59,223 nucleotides of DNA, taken from Opitutia bacterium. Lineage in GTDB: Bacteria; Verrucomicrobiota; Verrucomicrobiia; Opitutales; UBA953. Positions 16,669 to 46,918 of this stretch are shown piece after piece; position 1 is the stretch's first letter, and each line of letters opens with the position of its first letter. The stretch covers positions 1 to 59,223 of the forward strand of contig CANCHK010000007.1 in assembly GCA_947377865.1 (NCBI GenBank). The letters run 5' to 3'. The translations under genes and the position numbers were made by a program. The notes beneath the pieces are model-generated. The model was not told where the DNA came from and searched no databases. It was given only the letters and a program-made list of their open reading frames with translations.

Positions 16669-16671
16669 ACC

Positions 16672-16935
16672 AGCAGGATAGCCTCTGCCGAGGTCGAGGC
16701 AACCTTCATGCCCGCCGTGGTAGGTATTGGCGGTTAGCGGTTGGGAAAGGTATTTCGGGTGACGGGTGACGGCCACCAGGGCATCGGCCTCTCAGGAGTC
16801 GGCTTTTCAGCCATCGGCCATCGGCTTCGGGTTCCCGCGGCTGAAAGCCGAAATGAGTTCCTAACCGCTAACCGCTTCCACCTGATACATGCCTCCCCTT
16901 GTCACCGTGTCACCTTGCCCGCGTGCCCCCTCGCG
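16672..16935 (-). repeat. ~265-bp duplicated leader, copy 2
   Basis: Near-identical to 14857-15121 and in the same orientation, beginning four bases upstream of the sulfatase start and ending just past the Rrf2 gene. The differences seen are scattered single bases and small gaps. The pair flanks the sulfatase gene as direct repeats. Confidence 0.85.
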
Positions 16936-24324: not shown

Positions 24325-24465
24325 GGTGACGGGTGACGGCCATCAGGGCATCGGCCATTCGGGAGCCGGCCTTTCAGCCATCGGCAGCCGGCTCCAGGTT
24401 CCCGCGGCTGATCGCCGAACGGCCGGAGCCTGAATTCCCGCCACCCGTGGCCGTCACCCGTCACC
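24325..24465. repeat. 141-bp element bounded by 17-bp perfect inverted repeats
   Basis: GGTGACGGGTGACGGCC at 24325-24341 and its exact reverse complement at 24449-24465. The interior (CATCAGGGCATCGGCC, CAGCCATCGGCAGCCGG, TTCCCGCGGCTGA) is related to the ~265-bp leaders at 14857 and 16672. Upstream of the cytochrome/propeller cassette. Confidence 0.75.
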
Positions 24466-24566
24466 CGAAATTGTATCCCCGTCGTAATCATACCACCCGC
24501 CGAGGTTTATCGGCCCTTTTGATTTGCGAGGCCTCGGGGATTAAACTTCCTCGTCACACCCCCCTC

Positions 24567-26150: not shown

Positions 26151-26174
26151 CCCTTATCACCGGAAATCACCTTT

Positions 26175-27689
26175 ATGAAGAAGCTCTCCCTTATCCTCGC
26201 CCTCGCCGGACTCGCTGTCGGCGTGTCGGCCGCTCCGGCAAAGGCCCCCAAGGCTGGCAAGCTCGCGACCGTCGACTCCATCAAGGCCGCCGAAGATCGT
26301 CAGAACGATTTCTACGAACGCGTCGAGATCCCCACGCCTGCAGGCGAGGTGGCCGAAGTCTCGTCGATCGCGCTGCTGCCCGGCAAGAAGGTCGCCATCG
26401 GCACCCGCCGCGGCGACATCTGGGTCGCCGAAGGCGCCTACGACGCCGATCTCTCCAAGATTAAGTGGACCAAGTTCGCTTCCAATCAGCACGAGCCGCT
26501 CGGCATGTTTTGGAAGGAAGGTTCGATGTACGCGATGCAGCGTCCGGAGTTCACGCGCATGACCGACCGCGATGGCGATGGCCGCGCGGATAGCTTCGAC
26601 ACCGTGAGCTCCAAGTGGGGCGTCAGCGGCGACTACCATGAATACGCCTTCGGCTCTGAGCCGGATAAGAATGGCGACGTCTGGATGGTCCTCTGCTTGA
26701 CCGGCTCGTTCCATGCCCACGCTCCATGGCGCGGCTGGTGCGCGCGCATCACGCCCGACGGCAAGTTCGTCCCGACCGCTTCGGGTATCCGTTCGCCGGG
26801 TGGCATCGGCGCCAACGATAAAGGCGATATGTTCTATACCGATAACCAAGGCGTATGGAACGGCTCCTCCGCGCTCAAGTGGCTCCGCCCCGGATCCTTC
26901 CAGGGTAATCCCACCGGTAATAAGTCGGCCGCCCTCGCGAGCTTCCCTGCGCCCCCCGAGCCTACCAGCGGCTCGCGCATCCTGACTGAGCGCCTGAAGT
27001 TCCCCGAGTTCGTGCCTCCTTCGGTGATCCTGCCGCACGGCAGGGTCGGTAATTCTCCGTCCGGTATCGCCTGCGATATGACCAAGGGCAAGTTCGGCCC
27101 GTGGGAAAGCCAGATGCTCATCGGCGAGCAGACCGCTTCGCAGGTCCAGCGTATCAACCTCGAGTTCGTCAACGGCCTCTACCAAGGTGCCGTGTTCCAT
27201 TTCCTCGGCGGCTTCGAAGCCGGCCTGATCCCGGTCCGCATGGACCAGGAAGATGGCACGCTCTTCGTGGGTGGTTCCAATCGCGGCTGGGGTTCGCGCG
27301 GCTCGAAGCCGTTCACCTTCGAGCGCGTGCGTTTCAAGGGTAAGGTGCCGTTCGAGATGCATGACATCTCCGCCCGCAATGATGGCTTCGAAGTGACGTT
27401 CACGCACCCCGTGGACGCTGCTGCGGCCGCTGACGTCGCGAACTACACGATGGATACCTTCACGTATATTTACCAGTCGAGCTACGGCAGCCCCGAGGTC
27501 GATCAGACCACGCCCACCGTCAAGTCCGCCACCGTCTCGGCCGACGGACTCAAGGTGCGCCTCGTCATCGACGGCCTCGTCCGCGGCAGCATCCATCACC
27601 TCGTCCTCGGTGATATCAAGGCCAAGTCCGGCGAGACCCTCTGGCACAGCGAAGGCTGGTATACCCTGAATGAGATACCGGCGAAATAA
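26175..27689 (+). CDS. Secreted beta-propeller protein, sorbosone/glucose dehydrogenase-like (paralog A)
   Basis: A 504-residue exported protein (signal MKKLSLILALAGLAVGVSA). Repeated blades are visible: VSSIALLPGKKVAIGTRRGD, LGMFWKEGSMYAMQRPEFTR, then the Ca-binding-like DRDGDGRAD, APWRGWCARITPDGKFVPTA, RSPGGIGANDKGDMFYTDNQG and TLFVGGSNRGWGSRG. A C-terminal Ig-like part with FEVTFTHPVD closes it. The pattern fits the six-bladed quinoprotein-like propellers common in PVC genomes, often next to heme proteins. No heme motif of its own. Whether it binds PQQ or another cofactor is not visible. It is paralogous to 42888-44369 and ends in a clear terminator. Confidence 0.78.
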   Translation: MKKLSLILALAGLAVGVSAAPAKAPKAGKLATVDSIKAAEDRQNDFYERVEIPTPAGEVAEVSSIALLPGKKVAIGTRRGDIWVAEGAYDADLSKIKWTKFASNQHEPLGMFWKEGSMYAMQRPEFTRMTDRDGDGRADSFDTVSSKWGVSGDYHEYAFGSEPDKNGDVWMVLCLTGSFHAHAPWRGWCARITPDGKFVPTASGIRSPGGIGANDKGDMFYTDNQGVWNGSSALKWLRPGSFQGNPTGNKSAALASFPAPPEPTSGSRILTERLKFPEFVPPSVILPHGRVGNSPSGIACDMTKGKFGPWESQMLIGEQTASQVQRINLEFVNGLYQGAVFHFLGGFEAGLIPVRMDQEDGTLFVGGSNRGWGSRGSKPFTFERVRFKGKVPFEMHDISARNDGFEVTFTHPVDAAAAADVANYTMDTFTYIYQSSYGSPEVDQTTPTVKSATVSADGLKVRLVIDGLVRGSIHHLVLGDIKAKSGETLWHSEGWYTLNEIPAK

Positions 27690-27700
27690 GCCTGACGGCG

Positions 27701-27740
27701 GGGAACTGCTGGCAGGGTGAACTGCTGCGAAGCAGAAGGA
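27701..27740 (+). repeat. 40-bp interspersed repeat, copy 4
   Basis: GGGGAACTGCTGGCAGGGTG followed by AACTGCTGCGAAGCAGAAGG, 11 bases after the propeller stop codon and directly before its terminator. Confidence 0.75.
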
Positions 27741-27743
27741 GAG

Positions 27744-27770
27744 GGCGCCGATTGGCGCCCTTTTTGTTTG
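27744..27770 (+). terminator. Rho-independent terminator after the propeller gene
   Basis: GGGCGCC-GATT-GGCGCCC followed by TTTTTGTTT. Confidence 0.88.
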
Positions 27771-27805
27771 GGCAGGGGCAGCACGGCGTCGCGTCCGCTG
27801 TCTCT

Positions 27806-27869
27806 GGGTAGGGCTGGCCATCCTTGGCCGGCCGCGGCCGAGCAGGGATGCTCGGCCCTACCTAGATGC
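27806..27869 (+). repeat. 64-bp direct repeat (double-hairpin REP), left copy
   Basis: Identical over 64 bases to 30026-30089. It begins GGGTAGGGCTGGCCATCCTT, contains GGCCGGCCGCGGCC and ends GGGATGCTCGGCCCTACC-TAGATGC, so two hairpins face each other with GTAGGG at one end and CCCTAC at the other, the layout of a BIME. Confidence 0.9.
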
Positions 27870-27923
27870 GAAGCCTCATACCCCTAATGCTCTCATCTGC
27901 TCAAATAGAGGAGGGGAACGCGG

Positions 27924-29867
27924 TTGCCACGGAGGGCGGGCGGAAAGAGAAGTATGCAACCCCTTACCTCTGCCATGCATATTACCTGGATTGATTGGGT
28001 CATCGTCGCGGCTTCGATCCTGATCTGCTTCGTCCCGGCGCTCTTCCTCGCCAAGCGCTCCGGCGGCAGCACCGCCGAGTTCTTCGCCTCCGGTCGCTCG
28101 GTGCCTTGGTGGCTCGCCGGTCTTTCAATGGTCGCGACGACGTTCTCGTCTGACACCCCGAACTGGGTGACCGAGCAGGTGCGCAAGTACGGCGTCGCCG
28201 GCAACTGGCAGTGGTGGGCCTTCGTACTGACTGGTGTCGCCACCGTCTTCTTCTTCGCCCGCCTGTGGCGACGCTCGGGCGTCATGACCGACCTCGAGTT
28301 CTACGAGCATCGCTACTCCGGCACTGCCGCCTCCGTCGTCCGCGGTTTCCGCGCCCTCTATCTCGGGTTGTTCTTCAATTGCTTCATCATGGGCATGGTG
28401 ACGCTGGCTGCGTGCAAGATCGCCAACATCCTCTTCGGCATGCCCGCCTGGCAGACCATCGTCGTCTGCGGTATCCTCAATGTCGTCTTCGCCGCACACT
28501 CCGGCCTCTGGGGCGTGCTGGTCATCGATATGATTCAGTTCTTTATCAAGATGACCGCCGTCTTCGCCGCCGCGTGGTTCTCGCTCGTCGAGGTCGGCGA
28601 GCGTCTTGTCGGTAAGGGTGCGGGTGGCTGGGCCGGACTCAAGGCCCTCGTCGTCCAGCTTTCCACCCAGCAGGTCGTGACGACCGCGGGCGTGCCGGTG
28701 ATGTCTGCCTCGGACGGGAAGGGCCAGCCGATCCTCGACATGCTGCCGAACTTCACGATGTCGGAGCTGGCGCTGATGATCTTCATCCTGCCGATCGCCA
28801 TCAGCTGGTGGGCGAACTGGTATCCCGGCTCTGAGCCGGGCGGCGGTTCGTACATCGCCCAACGCATGCTGGCCTCGAAGTCGGAGAAAGACTCCCTCGG
28901 CGGCACGCTCTTCTTCAATATCGCCCACTACGTGCTCCGTCCGTGGCCGTGGATCATCACTGCGCTGTGTTCGATCATCGTCTACCCGGACCTCGCGGCG
29001 ATCACCCGAGCATTCCCGAACGCGGACCCCGCCCTCATCGGTCATGACTCCGCCTTCCCGGCGATGCTGATGTTCCTGCCGGTTGGCTTCGTCGGCCTGA
29101 TGATCGGCGGGCTCATCGCCGCCAACTCTTCGACCATCCTGACGCACCTCAACTGGGGTTCGTCCTACCTCGTGCATGACTTCTATCGCCGCTTCATCAA
29201 GAAGGACGCCAGCGAGACCCATTACGTAAATGTCGGTCGCCTCTCGACCGTGTTCCTCTACGTCATCGCGGCGCTGCTCAGCCTGACGATGTCCTCGGCC
29301 CAGCAGGCCTTCCAGATTCTGCTCTCCATCGGCGCCGGCACCGGCCTGCTCTACATTGCCCGCTGGTTCTGGTGGCGCGTGTCCGCCTGGTGCGAAGTCA
29401 TCGCCATGGTGATGTCGCTCGTGACCGCCGTGGGCGTCCCGCTGGCCATGCCGCATGCAGACTTCGCGACCACGACCATCATTCAAGTCGCCTTGACCAC
29501 GCTATCCTGGCTCATCACCGCGTATGTCGGCCCGCAGACGGACCGTGCGACCCTCATCGCCTTCTGTCAGAAGGTGAAGCCCGCTGGTCCGGGTTGGACG
29601 GACATCCGGGCTGCGGCCGGTATCAGCGATGCTGAGATCGCTCAGGAGAATCGCATCGGCTCGGCCTTCGTTGGCTGGATCGCCGGCTGCGCGCTCATCT
29701 GGGGTTCGCTCTTCGCCATCGGCAACTTCCTCTACTCGTCGGGAGACCCCAAGCGCCTCACCATGGCCTGGGTGCTCACCGCCGTCACGCTCGTGAGCGG
29801 TTACGTGCTCTTGAAGGTCACCCAGCAGCTCTGGGCGGATAGTACGGCTTCGGAGAAGCGGGCGTAA
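27924..29867 (+). CDS. Sodium:solute symporter (SSS) family transporter
   Basis: A large (about 630-650 residue) inner-membrane symporter of the SSF fold with about 14 hydrophobic segments. SSF features are FFASGRSVPWWLAGLSMVATTFSSDTP (unwound helix 1 and Na site), QWWAFVLTG, LPIAISWWANWYPG, MIGGLIAANSSTILTHLNWGSSYLVHDFYRRF and GAGTGLLYIARWFWWR. The substrate is probably a sugar or sugar acid, judging from neighbours (oxidative cassette upstream, aldose epimerase downstream). Start: a strong GAGGAGGGG at 27908-27916 lies seven bases before a TTG at 27924; the ATGs at 27954 and 27975 are alternatives, the last one fitting the helix-1 start best. The gene is bracketed by the 64-bp direct repeat. 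Confidence 0.88.
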   Translation: MPRRAGGKRSMQPLTSAMHITWIDWVIVAASILICFVPALFLAKRSGGSTAEFFASGRSVPWWLAGLSMVATTFSSDTPNWVTEQVRKYGVAGNWQWWAFVLTGVATVFFFARLWRRSGVMTDLEFYEHRYSGTAASVVRGFRALYLGLFFNCFIMGMVTLAACKIANILFGMPAWQTIVVCGILNVVFAAHSGLWGVLVIDMIQFFIKMTAVFAAAWFSLVEVGERLVGKGAGGWAGLKALVVQLSTQQVVTTAGVPVMSASDGKGQPILDMLPNFTMSELALMIFILPIAISWWANWYPGSEPGGGSYIAQRMLASKSEKDSLGGTLFFNIAHYVLRPWPWIITALCSIIVYPDLAAITRAFPNADPALIGHDSAFPAMLMFLPVGFVGLMIGGLIAANSSTILTHLNWGSSYLVHDFYRRFIKKDASETHYVNVGRLSTVFLYVIAALLSLTMSSAQQAFQILLSIGAGTGLLYIARWFWWRVSAWCEVIAMVMSLVTAVGVPLAMPHADFATTTIIQVALTTLSWLITAYVGPQTDRATLIAFCQKVKPAGPGWTDIRAAAGISDAEIAQENRIGSAFVGWIAGCALIWGSLFAIGNFLYSSGDPKRLTMAWVLTAVTLVSGYVLLKVTQQLWADSTASEKRA

Positions 29868-36476: not shown

Positions 36477-37640
36477 TCAGGCCTTCGCGCGGCGGAATCT
36501 CCCTGGGGTCTGCTTGTAGCGCGACTTAAAGGCCGCCTGCAGGTAGTGGCTGTGCGTGAAGCCCGTCTGTTCGGCGATGAGGTCGATCGTGAGGTTGGTC
36601 TGGCGGAGCAGCCGTTCCACTTCGCGGAAACGCACGCGCAGGATCTCGTCCTTCGGGGAGCGCTTGAGCACCGTCTTCATGCGGCGGTCGAGCGTGCTCC
36701 GCGACGCGCCCAGCTTTGCGGCGAGTTCATTGACGTCGAGTCCGCGCACGGCGCCTTCGCGGATGAGCGCGACCGCCCTCGCCACGAGCCGGTCACTGAT
36801 TACCAGTTCGCCAGAAGACCCGCGCACCACGATGCCTTTGGGCGCGATCAGGGTTGGCTTAGTCCGGCCGGCCTTGCCGCGCATCATTCGGTCGAGCAGT
36901 TCAGCGGCGGCGAAGCCCACTGCCTGGCCGTCGAAGCGGACGCTCGAGAGGGGCGGGGTGGTGAAGCTGCACAGCGTCTCCTCGTTTTCCGCGCCGACGA
37001 CCGCGACTTCTTCCGGCACGGCGACGCCCGCCGTCTGACAGGCCTCCAGCAGGCGTACGCCAAGTTGATCCGTCGTCGCGAAGATGCCGATGGGCTTGGG
37101 CAGTTGCGCAATCCATTGGATTAGCCGCGACTGGCTCTGCTCCCAGTCCGGGACACGCTCGGGATGGTCTTCGGGGAGTTCGAGGCAGCGGTGTCCGTAG
37201 GCACGGATGACTTTCTTGAAGTTGTTGACGCGCTCGACGAAGAACTGCTCATTGCGTTGGCTGTAGGCGGCGAAGTGTCGGAAGCTTCGTTCATAGAGAT
37301 GCTCGGCCACCATGCGGCCGATATCATCATTATTACAGCCCACGAAGGGCCGTCCGCCGGCGAAGTGCGTCGAGCGAAGTTCGACGGCCGGCAGGCCCGT
37401 CGCTGCGACCAGCTTGGAGGTCTCTGCGCTGAACGTGCGGGTCAGGATACCGTCGCCGTCCCAATCCTTCAGCCAGGTGGGAGGGGAGGAGTCGAGGGCG
37501 CGGAGTTCGAGGTAGGTCGACCAAGGGCCGTGGGCCGCCACGTAGCTGCGGACCCCGGCGAGTAGCTCGCGGGTGTAGGACCGCGTGGTCTCGATGAGCA
37601 GGGCGACCCGCGGGGCGCGGCGATGGGCGGGGGAGGGCAT
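36477..37640 (-). CDS. XylR-like AraC-family regulator with periplasmic-binding-protein-like sensor
   Basis: A 387-residue one-component regulator. The N-terminal ~270 residues form a LacI/PBP-like sugar-sensing domain (VALLIETTRSYTRELLAGVRSY, then GCNNDDIGRMVAEHLYERSF and KPIGIFATTDQLGVRLLEAC), and the C-terminal ~100 residues are an AraC double helix-turn-helix (VNELAAKLGASRSTLDRRMK, then IDLIAEQTGFTHSHYLQAAF and GRFRRAKA). This is the architecture of E. coli XylR, common in Planctomycetes and Verrucomicrobiota beside glycan genes. It is divergent from the operon of exported proteins starting at 37723, which it probably controls. Start at ATG 37640; the longer frame to 37793 overlaps the divergent gene. 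Confidence 0.9.
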   Translation of the reverse strand: MPSPAHRRAPRVALLIETTRSYTRELLAGVRSYVAAHGPWSTYLELRALDSSPPTWLKDWDGDGILTRTFSAETSKLVAATGLPAVELRSTHFAGGRPFVGCNNDDIGRMVAEHLYERSFRHFAAYSQRNEQFFVERVNNFKKVIRAYGHRCLELPEDHPERVPDWEQSQSRLIQWIAQLPKPIGIFATTDQLGVRLLEACQTAGVAVPEEVAVVGAENEETLCSFTTPPLSSVRFDGQAVGFAAAELLDRMMRGKAGRTKPTLIAPKGIVVRGSSGELVISDRLVARAVALIREGAVRGLDVNELAAKLGASRSTLDRRMKTVLKRSPKDEILRVRFREVERLLRQTNLTIDLIAEQTGFTHSHYLQAAFKSRYKQTPGRFRRAKA

Positions 37641-37670
37641 GGATTTGACCAAAAACCTTACTTTTAGTGC

Positions 37671-37698
37671 ATCATACCTGTAATGACTTTCCGGGCAA
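37671..37698 (-). promoter_or_regulatory. Candidate promoter of the XylR-like gene
   Basis: Minus strand TTGCCC (37693-37698), a 16-base spacer and TATGAT (37671-37676). Predicted start about 25 bases before the ATG. It overlaps the -35 of the divergent promoter. Confidence 0.5.
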
Positions 37699-37711
37699 GA
37701 AAGGATATAGT
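37683..37711 (+). promoter_or_regulatory. Candidate promoter of the exported-protein operon
   Basis: ATGACT (37683-37688), a 17-base spacer and TATAGT (37706-37711). The ATG at 37723 would lie only about five bases behind the predicted start, implying a nearly leaderless message; no Shine-Dalgarno sequence is seen. Confidence 0.45.
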
Positions 37712-37722
37712 ACAAGACCCCC

Positions 37723-38409
37723 ATGAAACTCCGCCTCCTCACCGCCGGCCTGCTCGGACTTTGCGCCGTGGCTTCCGCCGCCCTCGTCGACAATCACAAC
37801 CAAGCCGCGATCTCCTCGGGCGCGGACAAGCCCGAGAACGCCAACAAGCCCAAGGTGCTCGTAATCATCGGCGACGCCACCGAGCTGCTCGACACGATGT
37901 ACCCAGTCTACCGCCTGCAGGAAGCGGGTTTCCAGCCGGTCTTCGCCTCCATCGACAAGCGCGTCTACCAGACTGTCCTCCACGAAGTGAAGCCGGGTTG
38001 GACGATTACCAAGGAGTGGGAAGGCTACACGATCAACTGCGACATCGCCTTCAAGGACATCAAGCCCGAGGAATACGCCGGCATCTTCTTCAGTGGTGGC
38101 CGCGGCCCTGAGTATCTTCGTGAAGACGAAGCCCTCCTCGCGGCGACCCGCTGGTTCTGGGAACACAAGAAGCCGATGATGAGCGTTTGCCATGGCGTCG
38201 AGATCGTTGCCCGCGCCGGCATCGTGAAGGGGCTGCACATGGCCACCGTGCCGAAGTGCAAGTTCGACCTCGAGGTCTGTGGCGGCATCTTCGTCAATGC
38301 TCCGGTTGTGATCGACGGCAACATGGTCAGCGGCCGTACCTTCCATGACCACGGCTCGTTCGTCGGTCCGTGGATCAAGATGCTCGAAGCCCAGCGCGAC
38401 CAGAAATAA
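37723..38409 (+). CDS. Exported DJ-1/PfpI-family protein
   Basis: A 228-residue class I glutamine amidotransferase-like protein with a Sec signal (LLTAGLLGLCAVASAA). The core reads KVLVIIGDATELLDTMYPVYRLQEAGFQ, IFFSGGRGPEYL, and the nucleophile elbow MSVCHGVEIVARAG with the reactive Cys followed by His; VSGRTFHDHGSF near the end fits the partner region. The family includes deglycases, isocyanide hydratases and chaperones; the activity here is unknown. Export is unusual for the family. First gene of the run of exported proteins under the XylR-like regulator; the next gene starts five bases after its stop. Confidence 0.82.
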   Translation: MKLRLLTAGLLGLCAVASAALVDNHNQAAISSGADKPENANKPKVLVIIGDATELLDTMYPVYRLQEAGFQPVFASIDKRVYQTVLHEVKPGWTITKEWEGYTINCDIAFKDIKPEEYAGIFFSGGRGPEYLREDEALLAATRWFWEHKKPMMSVCHGVEIVARAGIVKGLHMATVPKCKFDLEVCGGIFVNAPVVIDGNMVSGRTFHDHGSFVGPWIKMLEAQRDQK

Positions 38410-38414
38410 ACGCC

Positions 38415-39338
38415 ATGCTTTCCCGTCGCGATTTCCTCCGTGCCGTCCCGGCCGCCGCCGTCTTCGCGGCTCTGTCGGCCCGGGCCCAGTCCAAGGACGA
38501 ATTCAAGATTCGCTATACGCTGTCTTCTGCCCTTTACGGCACGATGCCGCTCGACGTCATCCTGCCCGAGGTGGCCAAGGTGGGCGCCGAGTCGCTCGAT
38601 ATATGGTGCAAGGTGCACGGCGACCAGCGCGAGCAGGCCACGGCTCTCGGTGAAGAAGCTTTTGCGGCACTACTCAAGAAGCACGGCGTAAAACTCGGCT
38701 CCAGCACGCGCTACCCGCTCGGACCGTTCAAGCTCCAGGAAGAGATGGTCTGGGTGAAGAAGCACGGCGGAGACCTCGTCATCTGCGGCTGTGTCGCAGC
38801 GAAAAATCCCAAGGGCGCTGAAGCCAAAGCAGCCATCAAGAAGTTCCTGGAGGACATGAAGCCGCACGTCGACAAGGCCGCCGAACTCGGCATCACCATC
38901 GCCGTCGAGAACCACATCAACCAGATCCTCCACCATCCGGATTCCGTCAAGGCGTTCGCCGACCTGAACACCTCGCCGAACCTCGGCCTCGCCTTCGCCC
39001 CGCACCACCTGCACGAGTGGAAAGACCAGATTCCCGACCTTATCCGCTACGCCGGCAGCAAGAATCTCCCGTTCATCTATTTCCAGGAGTATTCCGAAGG
39101 CGAATTCAAGAAGGCCAGTAAGGAGATCGAGATGCAGCAGCTGCCTGGCTTTGGCGGCGGTCTTGACTATCGTCTCGTCATCAAGGCGCTCCGCGATGTC
39201 CGCTTCAAAGGCGTGGCTGAGATCTTCATGCACCCGACCCCGCGCGGCATACCAATCTTGCCGACCGTTGGCGAAATCACCGCGGCCGTGAACAAGTCCC
39301 GCGCCTATCTGGATAAGTGCATTCTCGAGACGGCATGA
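38415..39338 (+). CDS. Tat-exported xylose-isomerase-like TIM-barrel protein
   Basis: A 307-residue sugar phosphate isomerase/epimerase-family (AP endonuclease 2-like) barrel. The N-terminus MLSRRDFLRAVPAAAVFAAL carries the twin-arginine motif SRRDFLR, so it folds, probably with metal, before export. Metal-site features are the Glu of IAVENHINQI, the His/Glu of FAPHHLHEWKDQ, the Glu of YFQEYSEG and FMHPTPRG. Relatives act on keto-sugars, inositols or 3-keto-glycosides. The ATG at 38415 starts the Tat signal. Its stop overlaps the next start (ATGA at 39335-39338). Confidence 0.85.
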   Translation: MLSRRDFLRAVPAAAVFAALSARAQSKDEFKIRYTLSSALYGTMPLDVILPEVAKVGAESLDIWCKVHGDQREQATALGEEAFAALLKKHGVKLGSSTRYPLGPFKLQEEMVWVKKHGGDLVICGCVAAKNPKGAEAKAAIKKFLEDMKPHVDKAAELGITIAVENHINQILHHPDSVKAFADLNTSPNLGLAFAPHHLHEWKDQIPDLIRYAGSKNLPFIYFQEYSEGEFKKASKEIEMQQLPGFGGGLDYRLVIKALRDVRFKGVAEIFMHPTPRGIPILPTVGEITAAVNKSRAYLDKCILETA

Positions 39339-40810
39339 TGGTACGCCTCGCGATGCTGCTCGCTGCTTTGCTGCTCGCGCCGCTGGCCGCGTGGGGCGCG
39401 GCCGAGGTTCCGAAGGCCAGGCCGAACATCATTGTGATCCTTTCCGACGACCTCGGTTGGGCTGACCTCTCCTGTTACGGCAGCACCTTCCACGAGTCGC
39501 CTCATCTCGATAACCTCGCCGCGCAGGGCATGCGCTTCACGCAGGCTTACTCGAGCAGCCCCTATTGTTCGCCATCGCGGGCGGCGATCATGACCGGACG
39601 TTACCCGGCACGGCTGAAGCTCACCGATTACATCCCGGGCAACGGCAAGTCGGGAAAATTCTTGCCGGCCGAGATGAAGATGGAGCTACCGCTGGAAGAA
39701 GTGACCATCGCAGAAGTGTTGAAGGGCGCCGGTTATGCCACCTGGCATGTGGGCAAGTGGCACCTCGGTGACACCGGCTTCTACCCGCAGAATCAGGGCT
39801 TCGACGTTAATATCGCCGGGCACGCGGGCGGCCTGCCGCCCAGCTACTTCTGGCCTTACGGCATGGATAAGAAGCCCGACCCGAATAATTATCATTCACG
39901 CGGAGTGCCGGGGCTCGAGGACGGCAAGCCAGGCGAACACCTCTGCGACCGCCTCACGAGCGAGGCGATGAAGCTCATCGAGCACCGCAAACCGGACCAG
40001 CCCTTCTTCCTCTATCTGCCGTTTTACGATGTGCACATTCCTGCCATGGCAAAGCCGGAGCTGGTGAAAAAATATCAAGCCAAGGCCGCCAAGATGGGGC
40101 TGCCGAACGTGAAATCGGCACCGACGTATGACGAGGGCACCGTTGCGCGAGGATCGGAGCAACCGCCCAAGCTCTTGGAGCAGCAGGTCAATATCACCTA
40201 TGCCGCCATGATCGAGACGATGGACACGAATGTCGGGCGACTCATGGCCAAGCTTGGTGAACTCGGCCTCGCCGACAATACGGTGATTCTCTTTACCAGC
40301 GATAACGGCGGCCATTTCATCACCAGCAACCGCCCGTTGCGCGGCTGCAAAGGCTGGCTTTACGAAGGCGGCGTGCGCGAACCGTGGCTCGTCCGATGGC
40401 CCGGCGTCACCAAGCCAGGGAGCACCTGCGACGTGCCCATCATTAACACCGACATCTTCCCCACGCTGCTTGAGGCCGCTGGTCTTGCCGCCATGCCCGA
40501 CCTGCATCGGGACGGCATCAGTATCGTCCCCTTACTCAAAGGGGATACCAAGCCCACACATGATGCCCTGTTTTGGCATTACCCGCATTACGGTAATCAC
40601 GGCAACGGTCCGTGCAGTAGCGTCCGCGTCGGGGACTGGAAGCTCATCGAATGGCTGGAGGACGACAGTGTGGAACTCTTCAACCTCGCCGCCGATCTTT
40701 CCGAGAAGAACGACGCCTCGGCGCAACATCCCGAAATCGTCCGACAACTCCGCGAACGTCTCCACGCTTGGCGTAAGGAGACCGACGCCAATATGCCTAG
40801 AATTAAGTAA
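39335..40810 (+). CDS. Secreted sulfatase (formylglycine-dependent, Cys-type)
   Basis: A 491-residue arylsulfatase-type enzyme. Signal peptide ending LAAWGAAE; metal Asps in VILSDDLGWADL; formylglycine precursor Cys in YCSPSRAAIMTGRYP (C-S-P-S-R, about C78); VGKWHLGDTGFYP with active-site Lys and His; FYDVHIPAMA and LFTSDNGGHF. The C-terminal subdomain has FWHYPHYGNHG and VRVGDWKLIEW. Only moderately similar to the sulfatase at 15172-16668. It is translationally coupled to the upstream TIM-barrel gene and followed after five bases by the pentaheme gene, so desulfation seems tied to the redox proteins. ATG at 39335 or the next codon at 39338. Confidence 0.93.
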   Translation: MMVRLAMLLAALLLAPLAAWGAAEVPKARPNIIVILSDDLGWADLSCYGSTFHESPHLDNLAAQGMRFTQAYSSSPYCSPSRAAIMTGRYPARLKLTDYIPGNGKSGKFLPAEMKMELPLEEVTIAEVLKGAGYATWHVGKWHLGDTGFYPQNQGFDVNIAGHAGGLPPSYFWPYGMDKKPDPNNYHSRGVPGLEDGKPGEHLCDRLTSEAMKLIEHRKPDQPFFLYLPFYDVHIPAMAKPELVKKYQAKAAKMGLPNVKSAPTYDEGTVARGSEQPPKLLEQQVNITYAAMIETMDTNVGRLMAKLGELGLADNTVILFTSDNGGHFITSNRPLRGCKGWLYEGGVREPWLVRWPGVTKPGSTCDVPIINTDIFPTLLEAAGLAAMPDLHRDGISIVPLLKGDTKPTHDALFWHYPHYGNHGNGPCSSVRVGDWKLIEWLEDDSVELFNLAADLSEKNDASAQHPEIVRQLRERLHAWRKETDANMPRIK

Positions 40811-40815
40811 CGAAC

Positions 40816-42891
40816 ATGAAGCACTCACGTAAGCTATTCACCGCCCTCCTGTTCGCACCGCTGGCTACGTTGCACGCCGAACCTCTCGTCATCGGCTTCG
40901 AGCGTTTCCACGTCGCCACGCCGACGGCTGAAGGCGGGCGTTTGCTTTATAACGAGCTGGGTTGCGTCAACTGCCATGGCGGCGTGACCGGCTTGCCGGC
41001 GATGCGCGGTCCCGCGCTCGCGACGGTCACCCAGCGCGTCCGTTCGGAATGGCTCCGCAAGTTCGTCGCCGATCCCGCCTCGGTCCATCCCGGGACGGTC
41101 ATGCCGCAGGTACTGGCCAAGGCCGACGGACAGACCCTCGTCGCGATTGAGCATTACCTCGCCTCGTTGAAGCCGAAGACTGCCTCCAAGGGCCCGGCGA
41201 AGATCCTGCACGTGAACGGCGCCCGTGGCGGCGAGCTGTTCAACACCTTGGGTTGCGTCGCTTGCCACGCCCCCGGCAAGGATTTCGCCCCGCCCGAAGG
41301 CGCGCCCAAGGCTTCCGAGTTCACGCATCGCAGCGTGGGCTTCGGCGACCTCAAGGCGAAGTATAGCCTCGATAGCCTTGGCGCCTTCATCCTCGATCCG
41401 CTCAAAGTGCGCACCGACGGTCGCATGCCGAAGATCGTGATGGATCGGCAGGACTCCATCGACATCGCCGGTTACCTTCTCGAATTCCAGGGCAGCGACG
41501 GACGTCTGGATAACCCCGTCGTCTCGATTGCCGCTGACAAGGCACTCGCCATCGCCGGCCGCAAGACCGTGATCTCCGCCCAGTGCGCTGCCTGCCACGA
41601 ATTACCTAAGGACGCCGCGGCTAAGCCGGTTCCCTTGAAGAAGACCGAAGGCGGCTGCTTGGACGCCGATCACGCCAAGGGCCCACGCTATGCGCTTTCC
41701 GAGGCGCAACGTGCCTCGCTGAAGCTCTTCCTCGCCAAGAAGGACGAAGCGGCTGCACCCAAGCTTGCCGCTGATCTCACGTTGCAGGCACTCAACTGCG
41801 TCGCGTGCCATGAGCGTGATGGCAAGGGCGGCCCAGACGTTGCCCGTAAGCCTTACTTCCAGGGCGACCACAATCTCGGCGACACCGGTCGCTATCCGCC
41901 GCCCCTGACCGGCGTCGGCGGTAAGCTCCGTCCCGAATGGCTCGCCAAGGTGCTTTCTGGCGAGAACCGCGTGCGTCCCTATCTGAAGACCAAGATGCCG
42001 CAGTATGGCGCGGCCACTGCTGAGCTCGGTAAGCTGCTCGGCGTCGCCGATGCGCGTGTCGCGCTCAAGTTCGAAGGCGGCGACGACACCGCCGGCCGAA
42101 AACTCATGGGCACGCAAGGTGGGGCGGGTTGCATCACCTGCCATAGTTGGGGCGATCGTCCTTCGCTCGGCATCCATGGGCCTGACCTCAGCAACGTCGC
42201 TGCCCGCCTGCAGGAAGGTTGGCTTCGTGAGTATCTCATCAATCCGGCGGCTTATCGTCCGGGCACGCTGATGCCGTCGTTCTGGCCGGCTGGGAAGTCC
42301 TTCAATCCGGCCATCCTTGGCGGCGATACTGATAAGCAGATCGCCTCGATCTTCAAGTTCGTCGAAAGCGCCAACGGCGAGCCCGAAGGTTTCCCGCAGA
42401 ATCGTAACGGTGAATTCGAAATCGTGCCCAAGGATCGGCCCGTCGTACAGCGCGCGTTCCTCGACGGCGTGGGCGTCCGCGCCATCCTCGTCGGCTTCCC
42501 GACCGGCGTGCACCTCGCCTATGATGGCGACAAGGGCGGCCCCGGCCTCGCCTGGAAGGGACGTTTCTTTGACGCCTATCTCACCTGGTATTCGCGCTTC
42601 CCGACTTTTGAGAAGCCCATCGGCGAGCAGGTCGTCGCCTGGCCTAAGCCCATCGGTCGATTCCTCGGCTACCGCCTCGACGCGAAAGGCAACCCCACGT
42701 TCCTCAACGAGCAGGGCGGCGTGAAGGTTGAGGAGACCTACGAGGGTATCGAGAACGGACTTCGTCGCACCGTCACCTGGGTGCCCACGCCCGACTTCAA
42801 GCCGACAATCACGCATCCCGCCGGTATGATTGTCGACATGAAGGAATCCTCCACCGAAGGCCATCGCGTCTTCACCTATCTCTGGAAATGA
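40816..42891 (+). CDS. Secreted pentaheme cytochrome c protein
   Basis: A 691-residue exported multiheme protein. After the signal peptide (ending ATLHAEP) there are five CxxCH sites: CVNCH (C50), CVACH (C147), CAACH (C257), CVACH (C328) and CITCH (C439), in cytochrome-c-like repeats with methionine ligand candidates in GTVMPQVL, RMPKIVMD, KTKMPQYG and GTLMPSFW. The last ~180 residues are a beta domain (RAILVGFPTGVHLAYDGDK) paralogous to the C-terminus of the monoheme protein at 24567. It overlaps the following propeller gene (ATGA), so the two products probably form one oxidoreductase complex. Electrons would leave toward terminal oxidases or other cytochromes. Confidence 0.88.
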   Translation: MKHSRKLFTALLFAPLATLHAEPLVIGFERFHVATPTAEGGRLLYNELGCVNCHGGVTGLPAMRGPALATVTQRVRSEWLRKFVADPASVHPGTVMPQVLAKADGQTLVAIEHYLASLKPKTASKGPAKILHVNGARGGELFNTLGCVACHAPGKDFAPPEGAPKASEFTHRSVGFGDLKAKYSLDSLGAFILDPLKVRTDGRMPKIVMDRQDSIDIAGYLLEFQGSDGRLDNPVVSIAADKALAIAGRKTVISAQCAACHELPKDAAAKPVPLKKTEGGCLDADHAKGPRYALSEAQRASLKLFLAKKDEAAAPKLAADLTLQALNCVACHERDGKGGPDVARKPYFQGDHNLGDTGRYPPPLTGVGGKLRPEWLAKVLSGENRVRPYLKTKMPQYGAATAELGKLLGVADARVALKFEGGDDTAGRKLMGTQGGAGCITCHSWGDRPSLGIHGPDLSNVAARLQEGWLREYLINPAAYRPGTLMPSFWPAGKSFNPAILGGDTDKQIASIFKFVESANGEPEGFPQNRNGEFEIVPKDRPVVQRAFLDGVGVRAILVGFPTGVHLAYDGDKGGPGLAWKGRFFDAYLTWYSRFPTFEKPIGEQVVAWPKPIGRFLGYRLDAKGNPTFLNEQGGVKVEETYEGIENGLRRTVTWVPTPDFKPTITHPAGMIVDMKESSTEGHRVFTYLWK

Positions 42892-44369
42892 AAGCCACAA
42901 TTGTAGCCCTCCTTGCCGCCGCCTCGCTTTCCGCGGCGTCCTATGACATCGCCGATATCCTGACCGCGAGCACCGTCCTCGATACGCGCGCCAAGGATTG
43001 GAAGCCGGGTGACGGCCTCGCGCTCGAGGTCAGCGGCATGGATTGGACCGCCGACGGCAAACTCGCGCTCTCGATCCGCAAGGGCGAGGTCTGGGTGCTC
43101 GACGGCGTTCTCGATCCCAAGCCGAACAAGGTCAGCTACAAGCTCTTCGCTTCCGGCCTGCATGAGCCGCTCGGCCTGCTGCGCGACGGCAAGGACCTGC
43201 TCGTCACCCAGCGCACCGAGACCACGCGTCTGCGTGATACCAACGGCGACGGCGTCGCAGACGAATACCTCACCGCTGGAGCGGGCTGGAATGTCTCCGG
43301 TGCCTATCATGGTTATGCTTACGGCCCCAAGCGCGACGGGCTGGGACAGCTTTGGGTCACGCTCAACGTCGACATGGGCGACCATGCCGACAACAAGGCG
43401 CCGTGGCGTGGTTGGGGTGGCATCCTCGGCCATGACGGCAAGTTCATCCCCATGGTGGCCGGCATGCGTTCGCCGTGTGGCCTCGGCACGAACCTCGCCG
43501 GCGACATGTTCTGCGTCGACCAGCAGGGAACTTGGATTCCGACCACGCCGATCTACCATCTGCGCAAAGGCGCGTTCTTCCTTAATCCCGAAGGCATCGC
43601 CTCCGAGAAGCTACCCGAGTCGCCGCTCAAGCTTTCCGCCAAGATCCCTGAGAAGCTTCCCTATCCCGAAGCCCTCAAGGCCTTGCCTGAGATGCGTCCG
43701 CCCGCGGTCTGGATGCCTTATAACAAAGTCGGCCGCAGCGGCACCGACCTCGCCACGTGCGATACCGGCGGCAAGTTTGGTCCGTTCGAGGGGCAGATGT
43801 TCGTCGCTGAGTTTACTGACGCCAAGATCAGCCGCGTCTTCATGGAGAAGGTCGACGGCGAGTATCAGGGCGCCTGCTTCCCGTTCGTCGGCGGCTTCGC
43901 CTCTGGCATCGTGCGTCTCAGCTTCGCCCCGGACGGCTCGCTCATGGTCGGCATGACCAGCCGCGGTTGGTCTTCGCTCGGCACCAAGGCCTACGGCCTG
44001 CAGCGCCTCCGCTATAACGGCACCGTGCCGTTCGCCATCAAGGAGATGAAGGCCAAGCCCGATGGCTTCGAACTCACCTTTACCAAGCCCGTGGACGTAG
44101 CCCGCGCCGGTGATCTCGCCTCTTACCGCATGACCAACTACACGCTCTTTTATTCGGGCGCTTACGGCAGCGACGAGATCCAGGCGGCCGCCAACGGCAT
44201 CGTCTCGGCCAAGGTCGCCTCGGATGGCCTCAGCGTGCGCCTTAAGATCGACGGCCTCCGCGAACTCTACATCCATGAGCTGCATGCCGACGGCATTCGC
44301 TCGGCGGGCGGCGAGACGTTGGACCACGCGGATGCGTATTACACGCTGAACCGCGTTCCGAAGAACTGA
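42888..44369 (+). CDS. Secreted beta-propeller protein, sorbosone/glucose dehydrogenase-like (paralog B)
   Basis: A 493-residue paralog of 26175-27689. A very short signal peptide (KATIVALLAAASLSAAS) precedes blades such as LALEVSGMDWTADGKLALSI, LGLLRDGKDLLVTQRTE, the Ca-like DTNGDGVAD, APWRGWGGILGHDGKFIPMV, MRSPCGLGTNLAGDMFCVDQ and GGFASGIVRLSFAPDGSLMVG, then a C-terminal FELTFTKPVDVA domain. The ATG overlaps the stop of the pentaheme gene. No heme site. The cofactor is not visible; a quinone or a donated heme are both possible. Confidence 0.8.
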   Translation: MKATIVALLAAASLSAASYDIADILTASTVLDTRAKDWKPGDGLALEVSGMDWTADGKLALSIRKGEVWVLDGVLDPKPNKVSYKLFASGLHEPLGLLRDGKDLLVTQRTETTRLRDTNGDGVADEYLTAGAGWNVSGAYHGYAYGPKRDGLGQLWVTLNVDMGDHADNKAPWRGWGGILGHDGKFIPMVAGMRSPCGLGTNLAGDMFCVDQQGTWIPTTPIYHLRKGAFFLNPEGIASEKLPESPLKLSAKIPEKLPYPEALKALPEMRPPAVWMPYNKVGRSGTDLATCDTGGKFGPFEGQMFVAEFTDAKISRVFMEKVDGEYQGACFPFVGGFASGIVRLSFAPDGSLMVGMTSRGWSSLGTKAYGLQRLRYNGTVPFAIKEMKAKPDGFELTFTKPVDVARAGDLASYRMTNYTLFYSGAYGSDEIQAAANGIVSAKVASDGLSVRLKIDGLRELYIHELHADGIRSAGGETLDHADAYYTLNRVPKN

Positions 44370-44405
44370 CTCGCAACGGGGAGGTAATCCTTTCCTCTTG
44401 GGGGC

Positions 44406-45770
44406 TTGGACAACTCGCCGACCATCCGCGCCGAAATCGGCCCCACGCTCAAGCTGGCGATCCCCATCATGCTGGGGATGTTGGGCTACGGCCTGATGTT
44501 CGTCGTGGATGTCGCCATGGCCGGCCACCTCGGCGAGACCGCGTTGGCCGCGTCGGCCTTGGCTTCGAATCTCAATTATATCCCGTATGTCTTCGGCATC
44601 GGGGTCGTCGGGGCCATCGCCGTGTATCAGTCGCAGGACAACGGCGCCGGCGTCGAGGAGTCGTCGCCCGCGATCCTGCGGCACGGCATGGTGCTGGCCG
44701 TCGCCATCAGCGTCGTCGCCGCGGTCCTTTCACACCTCGCCGCTGGTTTTATCCCGCTGCTCGGTTCGTCTCCGGCCGTCACCGCCGAGGCCAAGGAGTT
44801 CTTCATCCTCATGTCGTGGGCCATGGTGCCCGGGCTGGCCTTCCACGCCTTGCGTGGGCATCGCGATTCGCAGCACCAGCCGTGGATTTCGCTCGCGTGG
44901 CTGAGCCTCGGTATCCTCGCCAATATCTTCTTCAATTGGCTGTGGATGTTCGGCAACTGGGGCTTCCCTGCGATGGGACTCGCCGGCGCTGGCTGGGCCA
45001 CAATCGTCGCCCGCCTGGTCATGCTCATCGGCCTTTGGTTCACGCCAGGACGCGGCGAGGTGCGCTGGGCCGACGGTCTGCAGATGGCCGTGTTCCGTCG
45101 CCTCATGAAGACTGGCTGGCCCGCGGGGCTGCATAGCCTCAGTGAAGTCGGCATCTTCGCGATTGTCCCCGTCATGGCTGGCTGGATCAACGCCACCGCG
45201 CAGGCCGCGCACCAAGTCGCCATCAGCACCGCATCGGCCGCGTTCATGTTGCCGCTCGGCCTCGGTATCGCCGCTGGCATCCGTGTCGGCGAAGCCTATG
45301 GCGCCAAGGATCCGCGCAAGGTGCAGGCCATCGGCCTGGGCGCCTTGATTATGGGCGGACTCATCATGGCCGCTTATGGCCTAGGGATGATCCTGCTGCG
45401 CCCATTGCTCATGGCGACGTATGGCGTCGCTGGGACCGAGACCGCCGCGCTCGCGTCGACCTTGCTCATCTTCGCCGCCGTGTGGGCGCCCTTCGACGGC
45501 GTGCAGGTTGTGGCGGCCTATCTCCTCCGGTCGGTCAATCGGGCCGCCTGGGCTTCGTGGAGCGTCTTCATCGTCTACTGGTTGTTCTGTCTCCCGTTGG
45601 CGCTCGCCTTGGCTTTCCCGGCAGGGTTCCGACTCTTCGGGATTCCTGCGGGTTGGTTTGGTCTCGGGGCCGTCGGCATTTGGATCTCGCTGGCGGCTGG
45701 ACTCGTCGTCGTGTCGCTGGCCATGGCGTGGAAGTTCCGTCAGGCCGCACAGGCCGGCGTGGACGCCTGA
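44406..45770 (+). CDS. MATE-family multidrug/toxin efflux transporter
   Basis: A 454-residue 12-segment antiporter with two homologous halves. The N-half begins LKLAIPIMLGMLGYGLMFVVDVAMAGHLGETALAA, typical of NorM-like proteins, with GHRDSQHQPWISL after helix 5; the C-half has RLMKTGWPAGLHSLSEVGIF and GIAAGIRVGEAYGAKDP. It exports cationic compounds with Na+ or H+. The start is a TTG at 44406; a GGGGAGGT at 44378-44385 is about 20 bases away, too far to be its ribosome site. It follows the propeller gene by 36 bases and could be the end of that operon, but its link to sugar work is unclear. Confidence 0.9.
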   Translation: MDNSPTIRAEIGPTLKLAIPIMLGMLGYGLMFVVDVAMAGHLGETALAASALASNLNYIPYVFGIGVVGAIAVYQSQDNGAGVEESSPAILRHGMVLAVAISVVAAVLSHLAAGFIPLLGSSPAVTAEAKEFFILMSWAMVPGLAFHALRGHRDSQHQPWISLAWLSLGILANIFFNWLWMFGNWGFPAMGLAGAGWATIVARLVMLIGLWFTPGRGEVRWADGLQMAVFRRLMKTGWPAGLHSLSEVGIFAIVPVMAGWINATAQAAHQVAISTASAAFMLPLGLGIAAGIRVGEAYGAKDPRKVQAIGLGALIMGGLIMAAYGLGMILLRPLLMATYGVAGTETAALASTLLIFAAVWAPFDGVQVVAAYLLRSVNRAAWASWSVFIVYWLFCLPLALALAFPAGFRLFGIPAGWFGLGAVGIWISLAAGLVVVSLAMAWKFRQAAQAGVDA

Positions 45771-45864
45771 GGCCGTCACCTCGCTGGCACGGGCGGGTCA
45801 GCGAATCTTAACATCGCCGGACTTTGCTTCCTGGGGTTGGGGCTTACCCTGAAGGCGCACCCCA

Positions 45865-46128
45865 ATGCACCTCACTCAGAACATCACCCTTCGCCGGGAG
45901 ATGGATGAAGATCCGGAATATGGTTTCCGCGAGGAAACCGAAGCCGACGTCATGCTGATGTCGCTTGAGAAGCTCCACTTGCTCGCAGCCGAACTACGTG
46001 GCTGCGGAGCCAGCCCTCAGGCAATTGAGCATGTCTGCGACTACGTCGTACGCGACCCCGTGTACGCCGATTCCACCCGATCGCTCTTCCGTTCGACCCT
46101 GGAGATTCTTCGCAACCGGGCCGGCTAG
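45865..46128 (+). CDS. Small conserved-looking hypothetical protein
   Basis: An 87-residue acidic, helical protein (MDEDPEYGFREETEADVMLM, SLEKLHLLAAELRGCGASPQ, then AIEHVCDYVVRDPVYADSTR). No signal peptide or membrane segment. I do not recognise it. Codon use is regular, and it stands alone between the MATE gene and the rpmA terminator. Confidence 0.6.
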   Translation: MHLTQNITLRREMDEDPEYGFREETEADVMLMSLEKLHLLAAELRGCGASPQAIEHVCDYVVRDPVYADSTRSLFRSTLEILRNRAG

Positions 46129-46198
46129 GTGCCGACCCGAAGGACGACGCTAGACCCGGGTCGCTCCCGGGGGAGGGGAGTGTCGTCGCTTGGTCCGT

Positions 46199-46230
46199 AA
46201 AACAAAGAAGCCGACCTGATGGCCGGCTTC
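46199..46230 (-). terminator. Rho-independent terminator of the rplU-rpmA operon
   Basis: Minus strand GAAGCCG-GCCATCAGGT-CGGCTTC followed by TTTGTTTT, 20 bases after the rpmA stop. Confidence 0.85.
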
Positions 46231-46250
46231 TCGGGAGGCTGGCGAGCAGC

Positions 46251-46520
46251 TTACTTGATCGAGCAAGCGGAGGAGGTCGTCGGAACGATCTCAACCTTGC
46301 GGTGCTCGGCGTCCCACTTGACGAGGCCGTCGGCCTTGGCGAAGAGGGTGTGGTCGCGGCCCATACCGACGTTGCGACCAGCATTCATGCGGGTGCCGCG
46401 TTGGCGGATGATGATCGAACCTGCGGTGGCGAATTCGCCGCCGTAAAGCTTCACGCCGAGGCGCTTGGAGGTGGAATCGCGGCCGTTGGAGGAAGTGCCG
46501 CCGCCTTTCTTTGTTGCCAT
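46251..46520 (-). CDS. rpmA: 50S ribosomal protein L27
   Basis: Essential 50S protein near the peptidyl-transferase centre. The 89 residues begin [20 protein letters not shown] with the flexible N-terminus that reaches the tRNA acceptor ends; the bacterial core [21 protein letters not shown] and [14 protein letters not shown] follow. No N-terminal cleavage sequence of the Firmicutes type. Second gene of rplU-rpmA, 19 bases after rplU. Confidence 0.97.
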
Positions 46521-46539
46521 GGTGGTAGGACGTTAAGGG

Positions 46540-46854
46540 TTAAGCAGAGATGGACTCGACCTTGATCACCGACAGCTCCTGGCGGTGGCCACGACGGCGG
46601 TAGTAGCCCTTACGGCGGCGGTGCTTGAAGATGTCGATCTTGTCGCCGCGCTTGTTCTCAAGGATCTTGGCGGTGACCTTCGCGCCGGGGACGGTCGGGG
46701 TGCCGATTTTAGCGGCAGCGCCTTCGCCTACGAGGAGGACCTGGTCAAAGGTGAGGATGTCCCCTTCGTTCTTACCAGGGTACTGGTTAACGATGAGGAT
46801 GTCGCCTTGAGTGACGGTGAATTGGCGACCGGAGGTGATAAATGTGGCCTTCAT
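46540..46854 (-). CDS. rplU: 50S ribosomal protein L21
   Basis: The 104-residue 50S protein has [20 protein letters not shown], the L21 core [20 protein letters not shown] and the basic [19 protein letters not shown] motif that contacts 23S rRNA. The ATG at 46854 is chosen; the longer frame to 47001 translates a C-rich tract into poly-Pro. First gene of the rplU-rpmA operon. The tract 46919-46975 lies in its upstream region. Confidence 0.97.
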
Positions 46855-46918
46855 GGCTGTCGGAAGGTCGGAGCAAACGGAGTGAGGGGGCGTTGGCAAG
46901 GGGAATTGTCGGGTGATT

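Follow-up and report, generated by a model that had tools for sequence, protein, structure and literature searches.

A conserved four-gene module for possible extracytoplasmic sugar oxidation in Verrucomicrobiota, with a sulfatase gene apparently inserted late

We analysed a stretch of 59,223 nucleotides from the draft genome of an Opitutia bacterium (GenBank assembly GCA_947377865.1, contig CANCHK010000007.1), referred to below as the window, which carries an operon of five consecutive genes for exported proteins: a DJ-1/PfpI protein (DJ-1), a xylose-isomerase-like barrel (TIM), an S1 sulfatase (SULF), a five-heme c-type cytochrome (PENTA) and a DUF7133-like beta-propeller (PROP). Four of these genes, DJ-1, TIM, PENTA and PROP, are by their gene order a unit conserved in Verrucomicrobiota, and with slightly less than even confidence we take this unit to be a module for the oxidation of sugars or glycosides outside the cytoplasm, into which the sulfatase gene was inserted late. 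The unit, the insertion with its junctions, the export signals and the five conserved hemes are read from the sequence and the propeller from a structural model; from these we infer the function.

Gene order in relatives

The loci of relatives were collected by scanning contigs with PENTA, the best 80 of 444 being kept, and many rows come from the same genomes or are closely related to each other; selection through PENTA means that the counts of TIM, DJ-1 and PROP are unbiased by their own search. The 80 loci reach beyond the genus of the source, with titles that name Opitutales, Opitutaceae, Chthoniobacteraceae, Spartobacteria, Verrucomicrobiales and Akkermansiaceae among others. Flanks were scored with limits of 350 bp for TIM and 6 kb for DJ-1 on the upstream side of PENTA and of 400 bp for PROP on the downstream side, TIM being judged in the 70 loci that have at least 1 kb upstream of PENTA. 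By profile search, 68 of these 70 loci have TIM immediately before PENTA, and PROP comes immediately after PENTA in 65 of 65; DJ-1 lies upstream in 55 of 66, and all four genes are present in 45 of the 54 loci that have both flanks. TIM is likewise found in 27 of 29 loci of the same genus (L003-L031), always as the next gene upstream of PENTA, and the remaining two contigs end inside PENTA. The arrangement is beyond chance, because four of the five genes retain their order and strand in relatives. Conserved co-occurrence and gene order in Verrucomicrobiota, which a preliminary description of this DNA had named as the check on all five families, holds for the four genes and fails for the sulfatase.

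The exceptions are few for TIM and more numerous for DJ-1. L135 has neither a TIM nor a DJ-1 match, and in L143 the place of TIM is taken by a different barrel, for which IolE is the nearest model (61.3 bits, cut-off 290). Besides L135, the loci without a DJ-1 match are L131, L133, L144, L153, L155, L166, L168, L169, L170 and L171. In L156 the DJ-1 match (8443-8976) contains two in-frame stops while TIM, PENTA and PROP are present. About 3 kb separate DJ-1 from TIM in L140, L147 and L150; this gap carries a TonB receptor in L147, and an open reading frame of L150 clusters with that receptor. TIM itself occurs within the genus in two alleles (38415-39338 of the window; L102-L127, L136, L149), which appear to have been exchanged between species while the flanking genes have another history: between L106 and L108 the nucleotide identity is 89% for PENTA and 92% for DJ-1 against 76% for TIM, and the gene trees conflict.

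In the window all five genes lie on the + strand. DJ-1 (37723..38409, Sec signal peptide) is followed after 5 bases by TIM (38415..39338), whose twin-arginine start MLSRRDFLRAV directs it to Tat export; the TIM stop overlaps the start of SULF (39335..40810, Sec signal peptide, CSPSR at residue 78) as ATGA; SULF is followed after 5 bases by PENTA (40816..42891, signal peptide, CxxCH at residues 50, 147, 257, 328 and 439), which in turn overlaps the exported PROP (42888..44369) as ATGA. The five reading frames and this spacing are as the preliminary description had given them, and its family assignments agree with Pfam, which returns DJ-1_PfpI, AP_endonuc_2, Sulfatase and Cytochrom_C for the first four, the five CxxCH sites and CSPSR being seen as well. 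The divergent XylR-like sensor that it had placed in front is also there (36477..37643, - strand), with Peripla_BP_3 and AraC-type helix-turn-helix matches in Pfam, and a homologue diverges from DJ-1 in 39 of the 53 loci where DJ-1 is present with 1.2 kb of sequence ahead of it. DUF1080, by Pfam, is not among the operon proteins. The picture of five exported proteins in one operon stands for the frames and export signals of the window; the sulfatase, however, lies outside the conserved set, and export of DJ-1 is lineage-specific. By eye, the translated upstream sequence shows a Sec-type signal peptide on DJ-1 for most of the genus, but none for L124 and L149 or for most loci outside it. The DJ-1 of L211 and L216, two loci described below, has a twin-arginine signal. 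A scan of 37400-46900 for promoters and terminators was uninformative, giving three promoter-like sites (2.0 in shuffles) and three terminator-like sites (7.5 in shuffles).

PENTA is found at 77-93% identity in Opitutae and Verrucomicrobia bins, many of them bearing lake names and one titled UBA953. By a hand count that includes some fragmentary matches, 33 of the 54 other genomes of the genus have a PENTA match of at least 77% identity. All ten genomes of the genus without any PENTA match (G003, G006, G018, G030, G038, G043, G045, G046, G049 and G053) are small, 0.9-1.5 Mb, several of them being incomplete, and it looks as if loss of the cassette had accompanied genome reduction.

What the module may do

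What DJ-1 and TIM may act on is best seen in loci that were found through TIM. A TIM profile applied at a strict limit (E 1e-60) to 387 genomes of the phylum picked out 13 genomes, including that of the window and G019, and the loci of the other 11 lie outside the genus; L210 and L147 are one contig, which leaves 10 loci when L210 is set aside. PENTA and PROP adjoin TIM in six of the 11 (L210, L213 and L217-L220; five of 10 without L210) and DJ-1 is present in seven (six of 10), the order in L217-L220, which are four genomes of one family, being TIM, DJ-1, PENTA, PROP. In the other five (L211, L212, L214, L215 and L216) PENTA-PROP is absent. L211 has DJ-1, TIM and, directly after TIM, a GMC oxidoreductase; L216 has a Tat-exported Gfo/Idh/MocA oxidoreductase directly before DJ-1 and then TIM. 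A XylR-like match is read divergently upstream of these L216 genes, and TIM is followed at 3.4 kb by a GntP-type permease. The L216 oxidoreductase is nearest to the BT_2158_fam glycoside 3-dehydrogenase model, at 310.9 bits, far under the cut-off of 750. A further Gfo/Idh/MocA gene is separated from TIM by two genes in L215. A search for more TIM loci that lack PENTA-PROP, in 161 genomes of the order of G235, returned just the two found before. BT2158 acts in the periplasm as a glycoside 3-dehydrogenase (PMC11300592, in part) and glycoside 3-oxidases of the GMC type exist (PMC10646112, in part). The presence of GMC and BT2158-like oxidoreductases beside DJ-1 and TIM is the best evidence that these two proteins have oxidised sugars as substrates, with PENTA-PROP as the source of the oxidation, and this substitution in gene context adds support to sugar oxidation outside the cytoplasm.

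The propeller would be the catalytic partner. PROP matches DUF7133 at 22.5 bits (cut-off 27) and Piru_Ver_Nterm at 24.2 bits (cut-off 122.2), and the sub-threshold DUF7133 match recurs at E <= 0.01 in all 34 members of its family, with a best E of 3.5e-10 among relatives. A model built from 34 sequences (predicted local distance difference test score, pLDDT, 84) is of propeller type, and Foldseek places sugar dehydrogenases of the pyrroloquinoline quinone (PQQ) type first (best 2ism_B, E 6.2e-10; TM-score 0.47-0.52 by query length). H141, R194, Q213 and K280 are invariant. In PENTA the five CxxCH sites and four Met-Pro pairs are invariant in 33 of 33 rows, and the Met-Pro pairs suggest that its hemes are His/Met-ligated; its model (pLDDT 84) ends in a C-terminal beta domain, for which no confident fold match was found (fatty-acid-binding-protein rows have E above 0.2). 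Both arginines of the twin-arginine motif of TIM are invariant in 32 of 32 rows, and profile comparison links TIM distantly to IolI (1i60, E 2.6e-05) and to sugar epimerases. DJ-1 matches PF01965 at E 1.3e-30 and TIGR01382 (PfpI) at 111.8, under the cut-off of 139.05, with the catalytic Glu54, Cys156 and His157 conserved in 98-100% of 57 rows.

In the mechanism that we propose, PROP would bind a sugar or glycoside and oxidise it at a ring hydroxyl, handing the electrons to PENTA, which would pass them to respiration. The Tat-exported barrel could then isomerise the keto-sugar or eliminate from it, and DJ-1 may remove a reactive carbonyl by-product or act on an intermediate. Extracytoplasmic oxidation of sugars with hemes as electron acceptors, as proposed in the preliminary description, is plausible: the context substitution and a PROP model whose fold ranks nearest to soluble PQQ glucose dehydrogenases (sGDH) speak for it, while the PQQ genes were not found and there is no profile link.

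Several results weigh against sugar oxidation by PENTA-PROP. The context substitution is seen in no more than two or three genomes, where genes of the Gfo/Idh/MocA class may be frequent in any case. L212 and L214 have TIM without PENTA-PROP and no oxidoreductase among those of their neighbours that were scanned; L214 has an SDR-like open reading frame at 12864-13613 and a gene for an alpha-L-fucosidase. For PROP, the hhalign probability against the GSDH family is 4%, PF07995 matches none of the 34 members, and neither PqqE nor PqqC was found in the 49 genomes of the genus, the source included, where the controls lacked a PQQ producer (PqqC 0/14). For PENTA, residues 437-516, the last heme domain, match SoxX (TIGR04485) at 89.9 bits over a cut-off of 61, which points to electron transfer of a generic or sulfur type as much as to sugars. 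Finally, a CoA-transferase III and an enoyl-CoA hydratase follow PROP in L146 (Pfam was run on L146 alone), open reading frames clustering with them occur in the Opitutaceae loci L139, L142, L147 and L153, and such genes fit an acid product better than a plain sugar.

The last two results also lie behind an unlikely, if serious, alternative, in which the substrate of PENTA-PROP is not a sugar but a polyol, hydroxy acid, aromatic alcohol or sulfur compound, and in which the exported barrel and DJ-1 serve a separate, adjacent step. The best, weak fold row of PENTA is again a SoxX chain (1h32_B, E 0.0094 over 118 columns). That PENTA-PROP is lacking in five of the 11 TIM loci also indicates that the two pairs of genes are separable. 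On the other hand, both oxidoreductases that lie directly beside DJ-1 and TIM in such loci belong to sugar-acting classes, the regulator is of XylR type, and SoxA, SoxYZ and SoxB were not found among the operon proteins, the only part of the genome searched for Sox genes.

It is also possible, though on balance improbable, that PROP is not catalytic but is a lactonase-like or binding propeller, and that PENTA receives its electrons from an enzyme encoded elsewhere. The fold matches of PROP do include SMP30/gluconolactonase and HHIP propellers (E about 4e-06 to 1e-05), and the failure to find PqqC and PqqE and the lack of a profile link to GSDH fit a propeller of this kind. Yet the PQQ sugar dehydrogenases top the fold ranking with lower E-values, PROP never fails to follow PENTA directly in the loci scored, and the pair is jointly missing from five TIM loci. 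We also considered PROP as an ordinary PQQ glucose dehydrogenase; on the profile results and the negative searches for PqqC and PqqE we rejected membership of that family and retained the resemblance in fold. Since PqqC and PqqE were not found, a PQQ mechanism would need an imported cofactor.

The sulfatase gene and its insertion site

A sulfatase between TIM and PENTA was found in none of the 80 loci of relatives by profile search, in none of the 27 same-genus loci that have TIM (L003-L031), and no sulfatase-profile match occurs in the 11 TIM loci. In 68 of the 70 loci with enough upstream sequence the distance between TIM and PENTA leaves no space for one, and L135 and L143 are likewise without one at this place. 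The stop codon of TIM and the start codon of PENTA overlap in relatives, mostly as ATGATG, and the PENTA signal peptide follows, whereas in the window this is the position of the SULF start. The initial 36 bases of SULF (39335..39370, + strand) match the PENTA start of relatives at 27 of 36 positions for L102 and L114 and at 21-26 for nine others. In a control with 52 signal-type starts from nine relatives and the window the mean best match was 19 and the best unrelated one 22; among these 52, the score of 27 belongs to SULF itself and a score of 24 to a true PENTA start (L066). The PENTA start of the window is unlike those of relatives (13-18 of 36), and the protein becomes alignable from just before its mature part. 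In the simplest reading, SULF entered inside the region encoding the PENTA signal peptide and captured the start of that gene, and PENTA would then have obtained a new start and signal peptide. The sulfatase would accordingly be a late, recent accessory of the operon, and its absence at this position from 70 relatives makes desulfation an add-on. In the source lineage it may remove a sulfate ester first and so widen the range of substrates.

SULF matches PF00884 at E 1.3e-59. Its nearest solved chain is a kappa-carrageenan sulfatase of S1_16 (9fo1, E 1.7e-131), a match which alone gives no substrate. A donor was not found among 141 relatives and 387 genomes of the phylum: the best match among the relatives, 63%, is in G104, a genome of another family, on a contig without any core gene, and full-length matches reach 51% at most in the same genus and 55% in the phylum set. 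A second sulfatase gene lies in the window at 15172-16776 on the - strand, 23 kb from the operon.

The preliminary description had made desulfation a step of the pathway, and we rejected it as a core step, because none of the 70 relatives whose sequence extends 1 kb or more ahead of PENTA has a sulfatase at this position. A dedicated route of desulfation and oxidation in which the sulfatase is the integral first step of the operon seems to us quite improbable. It would fit an exported SULF that is translationally coupled at both ends, and the genome has a maturation gene of the formylglycine-generating enzyme (FGE)-sulfatase family PF03781 (best E 1.6e-82), a family that includes other proteins too. 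A different sulfatase, moreover, lies directly after PROP in six of the 56 loci with 1.2 kb there (L160, L162, L164, L174, L175 and L181, all Verrucomicrobiales by title), L167 has the start of one at its contig end, and sulfatases near other cytochromes are reported (PMC5615132, in part). However, apart from the insertion having occurred late, these sulfatases are just 26-35% similar to SULF, and the proximity of sulfatases to DUF7133 genes in the source genome is near random. The sulfatases after PROP in L160, L164, L174, L175 and L181 have the maturation site CRPSL, without the Arg of CxPSR.

The proximity of sulfatases to DUF7133 genes was counted genome-wide. The source has some 51 genes of the sulfatase and 26 of the DUF7133 kind in 2.3 Mb, a heavy load of both for a small genome; split matches were merged by hand (52 to 51 and 29 to 26), with four of the DUF7133 matches falling under the cut-off. 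Sulfatases are unsupported as systematic partners of DUF7133 genes in it: four of the 26 lie within 1.5 kb of one (2.9 expected) and eight within 5 kb (6.9 expected), the expectation being a rough estimate that disregards contig ends and clustering. A second cytochrome-propeller pair occurs in the window at 24333-26150 and 26175-27689, the latter DUF7133-like, followed by a sodium:solute symporter. At residues 528-609 a short C-terminal stretch is common to this cytochrome and PENTA (33%), and parts of the block (24333-29867) are found at an equal upstream distance in relatives of the same genus.

That the insertion is an assembly artefact, as might be feared of one draft metagenome bin (2.32 Mb, 128 contigs, 75.66% complete) on which alone it is based, no second genome with the insertion having been found, is very improbable, for SULF has a PENTA-like start, the new start and signal peptide of PENTA are intact, every frame is open, and the GC content at third codon positions of SULF (0.758) is near that of the other four genes (0.772-0.834).

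Comparison with known systems

The preliminary description knew of no pathway with this exact set of genes, and the literature that we searched, mostly at the level of listings, gave no published description of the gene set. The best label for the cassette, from its sequence, would be a variant of extracytoplasmic glycoside oxidation not described before. One may speculate further, at considerable risk of error, that PENTA and PROP represent an unrecognised respiratory class of PQQ-independent glycoside dehydrogenase that would stand in for the flavin- or NAD-dependent enzymes known from 3-keto-glycoside pathways. The cassette would then be modular: its isomerase and regulator would be exchanged from one species to the next, and it would acquire new exported hydrolases when these capture the start and signal peptide of a neighbouring gene. 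Lake Verrucomicrobiota are rich in exported hemes and propellers, and a conserved cassette that exchanges them with glycoside-oxidising enzymes offers a testable route to the function of such pairs. The sulfatase in turn illustrates, in sequence, how a single step may add a coupled, exported enzyme to an operon.

In lake Verrucomicrobia, sulfatase genes are often near PSCyt/PSD cytochromes, the function of which is called unknown (PMC5615132, in part). PENTA resembles these as a cytochrome of exported type and differs in that no PSCyt or PSD model is among its Pfam matches (E 0.001). With the PVC-type heme-binding propellers (DUF7133, Piru_Ver_Nterm) PROP shares weak matches to both models, but it stays under both cut-offs and has no CxxCH, the heme domain being a separate, unfused gene. 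The soluble PQQ sugar dehydrogenases (sGDH, Asd; GSDH PF07995) provide the best fold matches of the PROP model, from which PROP is set apart by the family evidence given above (no Pfam match, hhalign 4%, no PqqC or PqqE in the 49 genomes). The glycoside beta-eliminases AtOGE and PuCGE, which have 3-keto-glucosides as substrates, are TIM barrels of the sugar phosphate isomerase type that depend on a metal; cleavage of 3-keto-glycosides is within the reach of TIM barrels (PMC10628242, in part). The TIM of the window would resemble them in barrel type and differs in being Tat-exported. The function of BT2157 in the periplasmic 3-keto-glycoside pathway of Bacteroides thetaiotaomicron is described in PMC9007349 (in part). 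Where that BT2157/BT2158 pathway has a Gfo/Idh/MocA dehydrogenase and a DUF1080 hydrolase, the operon of the window has hemes and a propeller instead; what the two would have in common is the oxidation of sugars by exported proteins, and in L216 a BT2158-like oxidoreductase adjoins DJ-1 and TIM.

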